This document shows positions 1,274-8,489 of a DNA stretch of 64,000 nucleotides, piece after piece. Made by a program: the position numbers and the translations under genes. Within the stretch, counting starts at the first letter, position 1. Each line of letters opens with the position of its first letter. The notes under the pieces are model-generated. The model was not told the DNA's origin. It saw nothing but the letters and a program-made list of their open reading frames with translations, and did not search any database. This DNA comes from Microbacteriaceae bacterium (GTDB lineage Bacteria; Actinomycetota; Actinomycetes; Actinomycetales; Microbacteriaceae), in the NCBI GenBank assembly GCA_025352325.1, contig JANXTR010000023.1, positions 1 to 64,000 of the forward strand. Reading direction: 5' to 3'.

Positions 1274-2086
1274 ATGGCAGGCGGGGCACCGGTCGCAACA
1301 CTCGAGGGATGGCAGGTCGCCCCGTTCACGGGAGCCGGCCTCACCTACGACGTCTACGAGAAGGGCAGCGGCCCCGGGGTCGTGCTCATCCCCGAGATCC
1401 CCGGCATGACCCCGGAGGTGCTCGGCCTCGCGGAGCACCTCGTCGAGAGCGGTTTCACCGTCGCAGTGCCGTCGCCGTTCGGCACCCCGGAGAAGCCGGC
1501 CACGACGGGATACACGCTCGGCGTCGTCGCGCGGTTGTGCGTGTCGGCGGAGTTCCGCGCCTTCGCTACCGATGCCCACCGGCCGATCACCGACTTCTTC
1601 CGCGCGGTCGCCGCCGACCTCGCATCACGCACCCCGGCATCCGGTGTCGGCGTCATCGGAATGTGCTTCACCGGCGGATTCGCACTCGCCACCGCCGTTG
1701 ACGGCTCGGTTCTCGCGGCGGTCATGAGTCAGCCGGCGGTGCCCTTCCCGCTCGGCGCGGCCCGCTCGGCCGACCCGGGACTCTCGCAGGCCGAGCTGCA
1801 GACTGTCGTCGACCGCACGGCGAACGATGGCCTCTGCGTGATGGGCCTGCGATTCAGCGAGGATCGCAGCGTCCCCACGTTGCGGTTCGCCGGCCTGAAG
1901 GCGCGATTGGGCGACGCGTTCGAGGTGATCCAGCTCGATTCGTCCGCCGGCAACGCCGACGGCTTCTCGACGGGTGCCCACTCGGTGCTCACCGGCGAGG
2001 TGCGAGAAGATCCGCCGAACGCGGCGTTCGACACGCGTGCTCGGGTCGTGGAGTTCCTGCGGACGCAGCTCGCGGGATCCCGCTAA
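1274..2086 (+). CDS. Dienelactone hydrolase family protein
   Basis: IGMCFTGGFALA nucleophile elbow with Cys typical of DLH. Confidence 0.85.
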   Translation: MAGGAPVATLEGWQVAPFTGAGLTYDVYEKGSGPGVVLIPEIPGMTPEVLGLAEHLVESGFTVAVPSPFGTPEKPATTGYTLGVVARLCVSAEFRAFATDAHRPITDFFRAVAADLASRTPASGVGVIGMCFTGGFALATAVDGSVLAAVMSQPAVPFPLGAARSADPGLSQAELQTVVDRTANDGLCVMGLRFSEDRSVPTLRFAGLKARLGDAFEVIQLDSSAGNADGFSTGAHSVLTGEVREDPPNAAFDTRARVVEFLRTQLAGSR

Positions 2087-3567
2087 ACCGGGTTGCCCTC
2101 GGGCAGGGCGAGCAGCGCGGCGGCTTCGGCGAGCGCGCCGCGGAAGCCGTGCGCGAATCCAGGCCAGAGCAGCGTGAGGCGGCCGTTACGGGGGTCGACG
2201 TACCAGCTCTCGCAGCCGCCAGCGGTCCAGACGGTGCCCTCGGCACGAGCATCCAGCTGCCGCGTCCAGGCGTCCTCGGCCGCGGGCGAGACCTCGAGCG
2301 CGCGGCCAGGAGCCAGGGCGTTCAGCACGAACTCGATCTGCGACTCGATCATGTGGATCGCCGAGTTGTGGCCGAGCCCTGCGTTCGGTCCGTCAAGCAC
2401 GAAGAGCTGCGGGAAGCCCGCGACCATCGTCGAGGCGTATGCCCGCATGCCGCCTGCCCAGTGTTCGGCGAGGGTCTCGTCGCGACCGCGGACGTGCGCG
2501 GCATACGGCTGCTCGGCGGCGAGAAAGCCGGTGGCGAAGACGATCACGTCCACGTCGTGTGCGCTGCCGTCCGCGCCGATCGCCGTGCCGCCGTCGACCG
2601 CCGCGATGGGCGAGGTCACGAGGGTGACGCCGTAGCGCTCGAAAGCCGGGAAGTAGTCGTTCGAGATCAGCACGCGCTTGCAGCCGATCTCGTAATTGGG
2701 TGTGAGCCGCTCGCGCAGGCGCGGATCCGCGACTCCGGCCGCGAGATGCGTGAGGGCGCGATCGCGCGCGGCCTCGGTGCGGCTCGGGTCTCCTGCGCGC
2801 TCGGCGAAACCCTCCTCGGCCGCCCAGAAGAGCTGCGATCGAAGCCGGGTGATCTCGGAGGGATCCTTCGCGAAGAGGCCGCGCTCGGCATCCGTGTACG
2901 CGCGATCGGCGCGGGGCACGACATACGGGGCGCTGCGCTGGAAGACCGTAACGTGCTCTGCGACCTCGGCGATTCGGGGCATCAGCTGCACGGCGGAGGC
3001 GCCCGAACCGACCACGGCCACGCGCTTGCCGGCGAAGTCGACGTCGTGATCCCACCGGGCCGAGTGGAACAGCTCGCCGGTGAACCCCTCGAGCGCCTCG
3101 ATATTCGGGATGTAGGGGTCCGCGAGCCGCCCGCAGGCGAGCACCAGCACCCGTGCAGTGTGCCGGCCGGCCAGAGTGTCGAGTATCCAGCGCTCGCGAT
3201 CCTCGTCCCACTGCATGTCGAGCACGGGGGACTTGAGCCGGATGCGCGGCCGCACCTCGTCGGCCGCCCGCTCCAGGTAGTCGCGGATCTGATGGCCCTG
3301 CGCGAAGACGTGCGTCCAGTCGGGATTGGTCTCGAACGAGAGGGAGTAGAGGTGGGCCGGGATATCGCAGGCCACGCCCGGATAGGTGTTGTCGCGCCAG
3401 GTCCCCCCGACGGCGACCGCCCGCTCGAAAACGGTGAAGTCGGTCTGGCCGGAGCGTTGGAGCCGGAGGGCGAGCCCGATCCCCGCGAAGCCCGCGCCGA
3501 CGATGGCGACGTCGGTGTGCGGGACCGGCGTCACGTGAGACCGCGACTCGGGCAGCGACTCGGTCAT
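2083..3567 (-). CDS. Flavin-containing / Baeyer-Villiger-type monooxygenase
   Basis: GAGFAGIG Rossmann motif, BVMO fingerprint FTGELFHSARWD (FxGxxxHxxxW[DP]), second Rossmann VVGSGASAVQ. Confidence 0.9.
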   Translation of the reverse strand: MTESLPESRSHVTPVPHTDVAIVGAGFAGIGLALRLQRSGQTDFTVFERAVAVGGTWRDNTYPGVACDIPAHLYSLSFETNPDWTHVFAQGHQIRDYLERAADEVRPRIRLKSPVLDMQWDEDRERWILDTLAGRHTARVLVLACGRLADPYIPNIEALEGFTGELFHSARWDHDVDFAGKRVAVVGSGASAVQLMPRIAEVAEHVTVFQRSAPYVVPRADRAYTDAERGLFAKDPSEITRLRSQLFWAAEEGFAERAGDPSRTEAARDRALTHLAAGVADPRLRERLTPNYEIGCKRVLISNDYFPAFERYGVTLVTSPIAAVDGGTAIGADGSAHDVDVIVFATGFLAAEQPYAAHVRGRDETLAEHWAGGMRAYASTMVAGFPQLFVLDGPNAGLGHNSAIHMIESQIEFVLNALAPGRALEVSPAAEDAWTRQLDARAEGTVWTAGGCESWYVDPRNGRLTLLWPGFAHGFRGALAEAAALLALPEGNPV

Positions 3568-4154
3568 CCCGCCACCACGGGCACCACGGACGGATGCGTC
3601 GCGAACGCCGACAGCAGGCTCAGCACCTCGGCCGGCCGTTCGACCAGGGCGGCGTGCCCGGTCGGCAGCTCGAGGTGATGGGAGTCGGCGATGCCGCCGT
3701 GCAGCAGGCGCGACTGGTGCGCCATCGCCACGAGGTCGTACCGCGCGCCGATGACGAGAGTCGGGCAGCGGATGTCGCCGAGCCGCGGCACGGGCAGCGT
3801 CTCGACCAGGTCGAGCAGCTCGGGGCGGACGAGCGGGGCTCGATCCGAGTCGGGGCCGACCATGGTGTGCCGGGCGAAGGCCTCGTCGTGGGCGTGCCGG
3901 GTCCAGTCGAGCAGGCGCGGGGTCAGCTGGGCCCAACCGCAGAGCAGGACGAGCGCGGAGACCGGATGCGTGGCCGCGTGCGCCGCCGCCCGCACGGCGC
4001 CCAGGCTGTAACCCACCAAGATGGTGTCGGCATCTGTGACCAGCGGATCCGTGGCCTCGACCACGGACACCTCGTGCTCCCTCGCCAGCATCGGCGCGAC
4101 GAAATCGACATCGGCCGCCCCGCCGAAGCCGGGGATCAGCACGAAACGGCTCAT
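3564..4154 (-). CDS. Alpha/beta hydrolase
   Basis: GYSLGA nucleophile elbow; start/stop overlaps with both neighbours. Confidence 0.85.
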   Translation of the reverse strand: MSRFVLIPGFGGAADVDFVAPMLAREHEVSVVEATDPLVTDADTILVGYSLGAVRAAAHAATHPVSALVLLCGWAQLTPRLLDWTRHAHDEAFARHTMVGPDSDRAPLVRPELLDLVETLPVPRLGDIRCPTLVIGARYDLVAMAHQSRLLHGGIADSHHLELPTGHAALVERPAEVLSLLSAFATHPSVVPVVAG

Positions 4155-6388
4155 GCGAGCACCCCGGACCGCCGCGCGGGCTCCCCGTAGGTGGTGCTGC
4201 GCTGGCGCAGCGTGCGGCTGAGGCGGCGGGTGAGGGCCGCGGCCGCGTCCAGCGGGAGTTGCGCACCCTGGGTGCTCCCGGCATCCGGGCGCACCGTACC
4301 CGCGAGCAGGGTGCCGCCGAGGTCGTCGGCACCGGACTGCAGCAGCGCCGCCGCCGTCTCGAGTCCGACGCGCGGCCACGGCGCCTGCAGGTGCGGGATG
4401 GAGCCGTGCAGCATCAGGCGACTGGTCGCGACGACCGCACGGTGGGTGTCGAGATCCACGTCGGCGAACGGCATCGGCACGAACTCGGCGAAGCCCCCGG
4501 TCTGGCTCTGGATGTCGCGCAGCGTCCGCAGGTGCGCCACCCAATCCGCGGCGGACTCCCCCGCTCCGTAGTACATGATCGACGTCGACCGGAGCCCGGC
4601 CGAGTGCGCGGCGACGACCGTGCGGATCCAGGCCTCCACCGGTAGGTCAGTGGGCGCGATGCGCATCCGGATGTCGTCGTCGAGCAGCTTCACGCCGGTG
4701 CCCGGGAACGAATCGACACCGGCCTCCACGAGCAGGCGCACAAACTCATCGGTGTCGAGCTGGTGCCGCGCGGCCCCGGCCACGATGTCCGCCGGCCGGA
4801 AGGCGTGCAGGTGGATACCGGGGGCGGCGCGTCTGATCGTGCGGGCGATCTCGAGCGGGTCAAGGCCGCTGCGCCCCTGGAGGCACAGCTCGGTCGCCCC
4901 CAGCTCGGTCGCCTCGACGGCAATGTCGGCGAGCTCGTCGAGCGAGAGCACCACGGCATCCAGCGCGACGGCGCGGTTGACGACGATGCTGACGGACTCG
5001 CCGACCGTGTAGCGGCGGAGGTCGTCCGCCGCCTGCGTGAGGACGTCGAGATCGTCGCCTCGGGCCTCGAACAGTGCGGCGTATTCGGCGTCGTCCAGGG
5101 AGGACGGGTCCGACTGCGCCTGGGCGATGAGCCCCCGGAGACCGGAGTCGGCCCGGACGGATGCGCGGCTGACCGCCCGCCCACGCGGCAGCGCCACCTC
5201 GAGCGTCGGCGCCTCGCGGAACGCCACGACGGCGGGCAGCAGGGTTTCGTCGATCCACGCCGGGACGTAGCCGTCATGCACCGTCAGCCGCTCGCGCAGC
5301 GTGTAGCCCGCGTCAGCCGTCAGGCACGCGAGCTCGTCGATCTGCGGCCACGGGCGTTCCGGGTTGACATGGTCAGCGGTCAGCGGGCTCACCCCACCCC
5401 AGTCGCTGACGCCCGCGCGCACGAGGATCTCGAGCTCGGCCGCATCCGCCAGATTCGGCGGGGCCTGGATAACGGCACCCGGCCCCATGATGAGCCGTGC
5501 GACCGCGATGGCGGCGGCGTACTCGGCGGTGCCGAGATCCTCGACGCCCTGCATGGCGGTGGCGTCCTTCGCGCGGAAGTTCTGCACGATCGTCTCCTGC
5601 ACCTGCCCCCAGCGCTCGTGGGAGGCACGGATGGCGAACAGCGACTCGGCACGATCCCGCAGCGTCTCGCCGATCCCGACCAGGATGCCCGTGGTCAGCG
5701 GGACGCGCGCGCGCCCCGCGTTCTCGAGCACCTCGAGACGCACCGCCGGGTCCTTATCGGGCGATCCGAAGTGCACCTGCCCGGGCTCGGACCACAGCCG
5801 CACCGACGTCGTCTCGAGCATCATCCCCATACTGGGGGCGACCGGGCGCAGCGTCTCGAACTCCGCGAGGCTCAGCACGCCCGGGTTCATGTGCGGCAGC
5901 AGCCCGGTCTCGTCGAGCACCAACTGAGCCATGTCGCGCAGGTAATGGACGGTCGAGGTGTAGCCGTGCGCATCCAGCCACTCGCGTGCGATGGGCCAGC
6001 GCTCCTCGGGGCGGTCCCCGAGCGTGAACAGCGCCTCCTTGCAGCCCAGCGCCGCCCCCTGTCGGGCGACGGTGAGGATCTGCTCCGGCGACATGTACGC
6101 CGGCTTGTGCTTCTTGGCGAGTTTCGCCGGGGTGTCGACGAAGATGCAGTAGTGGCAGCGGTCCTGGCAGAGCGTCGTGATCGGCAGGAACACCTTGCGC
6201 GAGTACGTGATCACCCTTGCCGGGTCGCCGGCGTCGCGCACGGCCGTGGCCGCGTCGAGGAGACGCTCGAGTTCCGAGCCCTGCGCCGCCAGCAGCAGCT
6301 CGGCGTCGTCGACGGTCAGTTCGCCAGTCGCGCCGCGCGCGAGGGCGCTCTCGAACGCGACGGCCATGCCGACTCCCACGACCTTCAT
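4151..6388 (-). CDS. FO synthase (CofG-CofH/FbiC)-like radical SAM protein; CofH half lacks the CX3CX2C motif
   Basis: CofG half has CQDRCHYCIF and FTLGDRPEERW; CofH half recognisable (SLDELADIAVEATELGATELCLQG, SIMYYG, WVAHLRTLRDIQSQTGGFAEFVPMPF) but the Cys motif is missing after VVNR. Confidence 0.85.
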   Translation of the reverse strand: MKVVGVGMAVAFESALARGATGELTVDDAELLLAAQGSELERLLDAATAVRDAGDPARVITYSRKVFLPITTLCQDRCHYCIFVDTPAKLAKKHKPAYMSPEQILTVARQGAALGCKEALFTLGDRPEERWPIAREWLDAHGYTSTVHYLRDMAQLVLDETGLLPHMNPGVLSLAEFETLRPVAPSMGMMLETTSVRLWSEPGQVHFGSPDKDPAVRLEVLENAGRARVPLTTGILVGIGETLRDRAESLFAIRASHERWGQVQETIVQNFRAKDATAMQGVEDLGTAEYAAAIAVARLIMGPGAVIQAPPNLADAAELEILVRAGVSDWGGVSPLTADHVNPERPWPQIDELACLTADAGYTLRERLTVHDGYVPAWIDETLLPAVVAFREAPTLEVALPRGRAVSRASVRADSGLRGLIAQAQSDPSSLDDAEYAALFEARGDDLDVLTQAADDLRRYTVGESVSIVVNRAVALDAVVLSLDELADIAVEATELGATELCLQGRSGLDPLEIARTIRRAAPGIHLHAFRPADIVAGAARHQLDTDEFVRLLVEAGVDSFPGTGVKLLDDDIRMRIAPTDLPVEAWIRTVVAAHSAGLRSTSIMYYGAGESAADWVAHLRTLRDIQSQTGGFAEFVPMPFADVDLDTHRAVVATSRLMLHGSIPHLQAPWPRVGLETAAALLQSGADDLGGTLLAGTVRPDAGSTQGAQLPLDAAAALTRRLSRTLRQRSTTYGEPARRSGVLA

Positions 6389-6470: not shown

Positions 6471-7901
6471 ATGACCGCCACCCCCGCTCCCGTTCACGCC
6501 GGCATCCGTTCCCAGGCCCTGCCGCTCCTCGTCGCCGGGTGCTTCTTCATGGAGAACCTCGACGCCACGATCGTCACGACGGCAGTACCGAGCATCGCGC
6601 GCGACCTCGGCGTCACCGCCGCCAGTGTCGGCATCACCATCACGGCCTATGTCATGACGGTCGCGGTGCTGATCCCGCTCAGCGGCTGGCTCGCCGACCG
6701 CTTCGGGACGCGGCGCGTGCTTCTCATCGCGATCGCCCTCTTCACGATCGCGTCGCTGGCCTGCGCGGCCAGCCCCGAGTTGCCCGTGCTCATCGCCGCG
6801 CGGGTGGCGCAGGGCATCGGCGGTGCGCTCATGGTGCCGGTCGGGCGGATGACGGTGCTGCGGACGACCGAGAAGAAGGATCTCGTGCGCGCCATCGCGG
6901 TGCTCACCTGGCCCGCGCTCGCGGCTCCGATCGTCGCGCCCCTCATCGGCGGCCTCCTGACCACCTACCTGTCGTGGCACTGGATATTCCTGGTCAACCT
7001 GCCGCTCGGCGTGATCGGCTTCGTGGTCGGGCTCCGCATCCTCCCGAGGAGGGACGCCGCGGGCACCGACCGACCGACCGTCGCCCCGGACTGGCTGGGG
7101 CTCACGCTCACCTCCCTCGGCATCGCCGCGATCGTCTGGGCGACCACGCTCGTGACCGCGGCCCGCGTCGACGTGCTGCAGGCCGTGCTCTTCGGAGCCG
7201 TGGGCGTCGCCCTGCTCGCATTCGCGATCCGGCATCTGCTGCGCGCCCCGCGCCCCTTCGTCGAGCTGCGGCTGCTGCGAATCCGGAGCTACGGCGTCGC
7301 GGTTGGGGGCGGTTCGGTCTACCGGCTCGCAATCAGCGCCATCCCCTTCGTGCTTCCGCTGCTCTTCCAGCGGGCTTTCGGCTGGACACCGGTCGAGGCC
7401 GGAGCCGCCGTGCTGTTCCTGTTCGCGGGCAACCTGGGCATCAAGCCGACGACGACCTGGATGCTCCGCACCGCTGGCTTCCAGCGCGTGATGATCGCCT
7501 CCCACCTGGTCGGCGCCGCATGCCTCCTCGCGATGACGCTGTTCCGCCCCTCGACGCCGTTCCTCGTCATCGCACTCGTGCTGGTGATCTCGGGCGCCGC
7601 GCGCTCCGCCGGCTTCACCGCGTACAACACGATCACCTACGCCGATATCGAGCCGACGCATATGACGGGCGCCAACGTGCTCGACGCCACCGTGCAGCAG
7701 CTCGCGGTCGGCTTCGGGGTCGCGCTCGGCGCGGTGTCGATCACGGTCGGGCTGGCGCTCGCACCCGGCGGCGAGGAGACCGGCGTGTTCGCGTACGACA
7801 TCGCATTCGTGACCCTCGCCGCCGTGCTGCTGCTCGCGGCCATCCCGGCCTGTCGGCTGCCCGCGTCGACGGGCGGCGAGCTGGTGCGCGGGAAGGCCTG
7901 A
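6471..7901 (+). CDS. MFS transporter, DHA2/EmrB-type
   Basis: LDATIVTTAVPSIARDLG, GWLADRFGTRRV, hydrophobic TM pattern. Confidence 0.9.
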   Translation: MTATPAPVHAGIRSQALPLLVAGCFFMENLDATIVTTAVPSIARDLGVTAASVGITITAYVMTVAVLIPLSGWLADRFGTRRVLLIAIALFTIASLACAASPELPVLIAARVAQGIGGALMVPVGRMTVLRTTEKKDLVRAIAVLTWPALAAPIVAPLIGGLLTTYLSWHWIFLVNLPLGVIGFVVGLRILPRRDAAGTDRPTVAPDWLGLTLTSLGIAAIVWATTLVTAARVDVLQAVLFGAVGVALLAFAIRHLLRAPRPFVELRLLRIRSYGVAVGGGSVYRLAISAIPFVLPLLFQRAFGWTPVEAGAAVLFLFAGNLGIKPTTTWMLRTAGFQRVMIASHLVGAACLLAMTLFRPSTPFLVIALVLVISGAARSAGFTAYNTITYADIEPTHMTGANVLDATVQQLAVGFGVALGAVSITVGLALAPGGEETGVFAYDIAFVTLAAVLLLAAIPACRLPASTGGELVRGKA

Positions 7902-7904
7902 GGC

Positions 7905-8489
7905 TCAGGGCTCCAGGATCCGGTTCAGCAGCCGCAGGCTCTCAGCGATGTCGACGTTCGGGTCGAGCAACCACTGCGTCTGCAGGCCATCGGATGCCGC
8001 GATCACCAGGGCCGCCATGGCATCCGGGTCCACATCCCGACGCAGTGCTCCCTCGCGCTGCCCGTCACGGATGTGCGCCACCAGCTGCTGCCGCACGCGC
8101 TCGAACCGCGCGGTGAAGTACTCCTGGGACGCGCTGTTGCCGACGATATTGCCTGCATCGATGGATCCCGCCAGCATGCTCGTGTAGAGCGCGACCAGCC
8201 CGGGGATCTTCACGTTGCGCTCCGCGGCGCTGACCATCCGCCCGACGACCTCATCTTCCGGCTTCGCGCCCTCGTGACGCTGTTCGTTCTCTTGCAGCAC
8301 CTCGAGCAGCAGCGTCTCGCGCGAGTGGAAGTAGTGCAGCAGTGCCCCGTGCGACACCCCGATAGCCTCCGCGATCGCGCGGAGCGATGTGCCGTCCGCG
8401 CCCTTCTCGGCGAAGACCTCGATCGCACGATCGAGGATCTGCTGACGCCGCGCGATGCCCTTGGGTGAGGGAGGCAGTCGGTCCGTCAT
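7905..8489 (-). CDS. TetR family transcriptional regulator
   Basis: N-terminal HTH: QQILDRAIEVFAEKGADGTSLRAIAEAIGVSHGALLHYFHSRETLL. Confidence 0.9.
   Translation of the reverse strand: MTDRLPPSPKGIARRQQILDRAIEVFAEKGADGTSLRAIAEAIGVSHGALLHYFHSRETLLLEVLQENEQRHEGAKPEDEVVGRMVSAAERNVKIPGLVALYTSMLAGSIDAGNIVGNSASQEYFTARFERVRQQLVAHIRDGQREGALRRDVDPDAMAALVIAASDGLQTQWLLDPNVDIAESLRLLNRILEP

Follow-up and report, generated by a model that had tools for sequence, protein, structure and literature searches.

The window analysed here, a stretch of 64,000 nucleotides from a genome of the family Microbacteriaceae, encodes on its minus strand an FbiC-like protein in which a radical-SAM CofG half is fused to a CofH half devoid of the cluster cysteines, together with a small hydrolase and a flavin-dependent monooxygenase. 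The features of the locus are as follows:

4151..6388, minus strand: fused CofG/Cys-less CofH (FbiC-like) gene, 745 aa, uninterrupted frame with no stop
5204..6388, minus strand: CofG half, radical-SAM domain with intact CX3CX2C, by profile score and conservation
4169..5158, minus strand: pseudo-CofH half with no cluster Cys, full TIM barrel predicted
4949..4984, minus strand: residues ~469-480 VVNRAVALDAVV, where the cluster loop has been lost, aligned with the CX3CX2C segment of canonical CofH
4796..4798, minus strand: Arg531, just past a barrel strand, Arg in 82/82 pseudo-CofH and Ser (or Thr) in canonical CofH
4688..4690, minus strand: Lys567, Lys/Arg in 80/82 pseudo-CofH and an invariant Glu in canonical CofH
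3564..4154, minus strand: small alpha/beta-hydrolase between the FbiC-like and monooxygenase genes, present in some lineages only
2083..3567, minus strand: class-B flavoprotein (Baeyer-Villiger-type) monooxygenase, accompanying the Cys-less CofH at each named locus that has one

Divergent from the FbiC-like gene lies an MFS-type transporter (6471-7901, plus strand) and beyond it a TetR-like regulator (7905-8489, minus strand), both judged by eye from their translations.

The CofG half scores above the NCBIfam cut-off on TIGR03550 (456 bits versus 213), the CofH half below that on TIGR03551 (287.5 bits versus 374.1) and the full-length protein below that of the FbiC profile NF006687 (872.7 bits versus 1018). 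Of the two CX3CX2C motifs by which FbiC is recognized, the 4151-6388 protein possesses the one in the CofG half but not the one in the CofH half, which reads VVNR-AVALDAVV-LSLDE, 20 residues including all three Cys being gone in frame compared with a Cys-intact FbiC of the same family. The first-pass annotation of this DNA, which had described a normal CofG half joined to a CofH half lacking CX3CX2C through the in-frame loss of about 20 residues, is thus borne out by profile score and alignment, and a second shortening that it had noticed after MPF is likewise real, although its length differs among relatives. In the source genome (2.83 Mb, 96.5% complete) this is the only CofG/CofH-type gene found; the second intact FbiC or CofH that the annotation had recommended looking for was not detected in a profile search of the genome contigs. 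Homologs of cofC, cofD and cofE are present in it.

The two halves have fared differently. When the fused Cys-less proteins are compared with canonical FbiC, 115 of 137 conserved CofG positions are kept (in at least 95%) and none is lost, and CX3CX2C is present in 72/72; this, together with the presence of cofC, cofD and cofE in the genome, speaks against the neofunctionalized CofG which had been put forward as one explanation. In the CofH half, 39 canonical CofH define 147 conserved positions; scored across 82 pseudo-CofH, 50 of these positions are kept (at least 95%) and 55 lost, including the cluster Cys (the first remaining in about 1/82, the second and third in 0/82), the second Gly of QGG and the EETISR segment, while the invariant Glu is exchanged for Lys/Arg and a Ser for Arg, the latter in 82/82. 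Standalone pseudo-CofH proteins score 290-298 bits on TIGR03551, also below the cut-off. An AlphaFold model of the pseudo-CofH half predicts a complete TIM barrel (pLDDT 93.5), the nearest PDB fold being MqnE (TM 0.85); as modelled, pseudo-CofH is a protein that keeps the barrel without the [4Fe-4S] cluster site. Since MqnE agrees with canonical CofH at the GG and Glu positions and carries Thr where CofH has the Ser, these sites seem to be common to the radical-SAM family at large, and plausibly represent putative SAM-pocket positions that pseudo-CofH has lost.

In a first sample of 119 relatives, 30 had a match, and among the 15 same-family proteins with a readable CofH half the motif is missing in 12, which stem from independent assemblies and ten genera. 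The best 30 loci of a 400-genome family search are all Cys-less, and a scan of one genome per species, with gene calls from a simple codon-usage caller and species names as deposited, some of which appear misassigned, yielded 80 named loci, 53 Cys-less and 27 Cys-intact. The Cys-less form occurs in most FbiC-bearing Microbacteriaceae genera sampled (in the latter scan Microbacterium, Cryobacterium, Diaminobutyricibacter, Galbitalea, Subtercola and Humibacter) and is scattered through other Actinobacteria such as Terrabacter, Tsukamurella, Promicromonospora, Actinoplanes, Pseudonocardia, Nocardia and one Aeromicrobium MAG. Two loci with this actinobacterial cluster are found on contigs titled Acidobacteria (L087, JABBOD010000069) and Planococcus (L123, JASDDH010000028), names which look misassigned.

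All Cys-less rows fall on one side of a tree branch (SH-aLRT 100); an artefact of the deletion itself was rejected as the cause of this monophyly, as the split persists in a tree without the loop columns (SH-aLRT 97). Across eight pairs, seven of them fused and one standalone, dN/dS amounts to 0.11-0.26 for pseudo-CofH; the corresponding ranges are 0.04-0.11 (CofG) and 0.05-0.23 (monooxygenase). Judged by sequence, pseudo-CofH is one clade under purifying selection, neither a decayed gene nor an assembly error. Both findings that, according to the first-pass annotation, would count against a maintained protein were looked for: close relatives turned out to lack the Cys as well, and dN/dS of the CofH half against a same-genus homolog is 0.22 and not near 1. 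Among the explanations offered there, a maintained protein with a CofH-derived, non-radical domain has consequently stood up, and neither the altered CofG nor a decayed FO synthase, with which the low dN/dS and the continued presence of cofC, cofD and cofE are at odds, has done so. The linked monooxygenase, the split versions and the further lost family-conserved positions had found no mention in it.

The monooxygenase is found nearby in 53/53 Cys-less versus 0/27 Cys-intact named loci (Fisher p 6.5e-22, uncorrected for relatedness, with kinship of the organisms inflating such linkage statistics), and in a second count by sequence clustering at 61/62 Cys-less loci, usually as the next gene after the Cys-less CofH or after the small alpha/beta-hydrolase. 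The latter was dismissed as a third conserved operon gene, being restricted to some lineages, and neither an aminotransferase nor another substrate-supplying gene is consistently linked in the neighbourhoods of the Cys-less loci. Related to phenylacetone, steroid and cyclohexanone monooxygenases, the enzyme carries the BVMO fingerprint FxGxxxHxxxW(P/D), two Rossmann motifs and a catalytic Arg and Asp, which from the alignment we take to correspond to Arg337 and Asp66 of PAMO. Across the sequences of this enzyme that were compared, the Asp is present in 88/88, HxxxW in 87/88 and the Arg in 86/86 readable sequences. The linked monooxygenases group together, apart from unlinked BVMOs; the sole member of the group that looked unlinked (L218) is linked in the longer locus L122, apparently the same contig. 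While sharing motifs and catalytic residues with the phenylacetone, steroid and cyclohexanone enzymes, the linked monooxygenases differ from them as a clade of their own, tied genetically to pseudo-CofH, with a proposed role in cofactor biosynthesis instead of ketone catabolism.

Homologs of cofC, cofD and cofE are present in 12/12 Cys-less genomes of the first sample, CofD and CofE above the curated cut-offs and CofC below it in the genome of the window and two others; loss of the downstream F420 pathway was discarded on these grounds. A cofD was found in 19/20 further genomes, the exception being a 2.3-Mb MAG. In three genomes (G030, G058, G059) and most Microbacterium the pair lies inside an F420 gene cluster, the usual Microbacterium order being the Cys-less fbiC, monooxygenase, LLM/FGD-like gene and cofC, with cofD nearby. 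Nocardia aurantiaca aside, eleven genomes with the Cys-less form were searched, and none has an intact CofH above the family cut-off. The TIGR03551 search of complete and near-complete genomes, which covers CofH-related radical-SAM proteins, otherwise retrieved cross-hits to CofG, some short matches of low score and a single MqnC, the last being what had appeared as a hidden CofH in Actinoplanes lutulentus, where it scores above the MqnC family cut-off.

A separate CofG and a separate pseudo-CofH/monooxygenase unit occur in Pseudonocardia kujensis, P. terrae, Actinoplanes lutulentus and Microbacteriaceae 3FA27C10, four split-form genomes in which an intact CofH was not found; the CofG of A. 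lutulentus is encoded about 1 kb from cofD, and in two genomes (G078, G085) the split genes are adjacent. Nocardia aurantiaca (L151, L190, L195) encodes an intact FbiC, with a standalone pseudo-CofH and monooxygenase on another contig, so that the pair does not necessarily act as a replacement alone.

We consider it probable, at roughly 0.7 and from sequence comparison, that the window encodes an alternative FO synthase serving cofactor F420 synthesis, in which pseudo-CofH and the monooxygenase would replace the radical CofH step and CofG would remain unchanged. That it is the CofH step which the pair replaces, and that the product is FO (7,8-didemethyl-8-hydroxy-5-deazariboflavin), is what we infer. 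In the established pathway, CofH converts tyrosine to a p-hydroxybenzyl radical, which it joins to ribityldiaminouracil, whereupon CofG cyclizes the product, the domains of FbiC acting independently via a diffusing intermediate (PMC8498797). In the alternative synthase, the CofG half would be an ordinary radical-SAM cyclase, and pseudo-CofH and the monooxygenase would jointly put a 4-hydroxybenzyl group on C5 of 5-amino-6-ribitylaminouracil. The monooxygenase may insert oxygen into a tyrosine-derived ketone, e.g. 4-hydroxyphenylpyruvate, a candidate substrate suggested by the chemistry of the family; the resulting 4-hydroxybenzyl ester would release p-quinone methide, and pseudo-CofH would template its polar addition to the uracil, the intermediate formed being identical to the one that passes from CofH to CofG. 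Without any redox step, addition of p-quinone methide (C7H6O) to 5-amino-6-ribitylaminouracil (C9H16N4O6) leads to C16H22N4O7, which is the composition of the CofH product.

To a radical-independent, O2-dependent route as such, with the flavin enzyme making a p-quinone-methide donor and the cluster-less barrel acting as a polar C-C bond-forming enzyme, we would give slightly less than even odds. The particular sequence of ketone oxygenation, ester, p-quinone methide and pseudo-CofH-templated polar addition, reasoned by analogy, is more speculative and proposed still more tentatively. As PAMO converts phenylacetone to benzyl acetate (PMC3404926) and YUCCA-type FMOs accept arylpyruvates including phenylpyruvate (PMC9867223), the donor could come from BVMO oxidation of a ketone derived from tyrosine. 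The YUCCA enzymes, also class-B flavin monooxygenases, provide the precedent for arylpyruvate substrates, but their products are arylacetic acids, whereas the step proposed here would need benzyl migration to give an ester.

It is unlikely, if worth consideration, that the pair makes a different deazaflavin, with another aromatic unit or an added oxygen, from which CofC, CofD and CofE would produce a modified F420. The 55 of 147 changed CofH positions, among them Arg531 in place of Ser and Lys/Arg567 in place of Glu, would suit a different product, as would the oxygen chemistry, absent from CofH, which the monooxygenase brings along; however, no canonical position is lost from CofG, an indication that its substrate is unchanged, CofD and CofE of the Cys-less genomes are above the curated cut-offs, and F420-dependent-type LLM/FGD-like genes lie within the clusters. 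Scavenging of FO, with the Cys-less protein no longer making FO and retained for another role, appears improbable, as both halves are under purifying selection with CofG conserved, the pair lies within F420 clusters and one split form has CofG beside cofD. FO does pass membranes readily (PMC8498797), and three genomes of the same family (G008, G018, G023; L075-L077; 99-100% complete) have cofC, cofD and cofE above cut-off with no match to CofG/CofH or FbiC, so that an extracellular FO source is possible in the family; these three organisms are possibly FO scavengers or have some other FO source.

There is little to recommend the idea that another radical-SAM enzyme elsewhere in the genome performs the CofH step with pseudo-CofH as a scaffold. 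Split CofG and CofH are known elsewhere, and the independence of the FbiC domains and the diffusing intermediate (PMC8498797) would permit it, but the TIGR03551 search, directed at CofH relatives, brought up no further CofH candidate in complete or near-complete genomes, and the strict linkage of the monooxygenase would be left unexplained. A strain-specific deletion, assembly error or decaying gene is hardly credible: loss of the catalytic motif alone would fit, yet the Cys-less proteins form one clade across many genera and independent assemblies with dN/dS of 0.11-0.26 and a confidently predicted complete barrel, and this explanation was abandoned on clade, dN/dS and loop-free tree.

Compared with known systems, the alternative FO synthase proposed here resembles FbiC in domain order, intact CofG half, status as sole CofG/CofH-type gene and company of cofC, cofD and cofE, and is unlike FbiC in the CofH half without cluster Cys and other conserved positions, in its score below the NF006687 cut-off and in the linked monooxygenase. 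With CofH (TIGR03551) and MqnC/MqnE, pseudo-CofH shares the predicted TIM barrel, with MqnE as nearest fold, and 50/147 canonical CofH positions, but has neither CX3CX2C nor the second Gly of QGG, carries Lys/Arg for Glu and stays below every curated cut-off. According to a 2021 review, FO synthesis in all F420 producers studied follows one universal mechanism, which relies on two SAM-radical domains (PMC8498797); as that route is called universal, the pair would be a new variant of the F420 pathway. In the literature searched, no non-radical alternative for FO synthesis was found, and searches for FbiC with Microbacteriaceae, FbiC with Baeyer-Villiger and quinone methide with BVMO returned nothing relevant. 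Should the proposal be correct, a widespread cofactor pathway would have exchanged oxygen-sensitive radical chemistry for chemistry that depends on oxygen, and the FO synthase of many actinobacteria would be radical in one half and oxygen-based in the other, with a clear molecular record of the exchange in the deleted cluster loop, the kept barrel and the recruited flavin enzyme. It would also account for F420 genes in species below the CofH cut-off, could ease F420 production under oxic conditions and would represent a natural case in which a radical-SAM fold has adopted a different mechanism.

Two genomes without any CofG/CofH match (G048, G053) encode BVMO paralogs (L230, L231) with 50-51% identity to the window enzyme beside alpha/beta-hydrolases, of which L231 branches beside the linked monooxygenase group. 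In two others, a standalone pseudo-CofH and monooxygenase are located between molybdopterin-like genes (L223 in G117, L224 in G102), MoaE-like upstream and MoaD/MoaA-like downstream.
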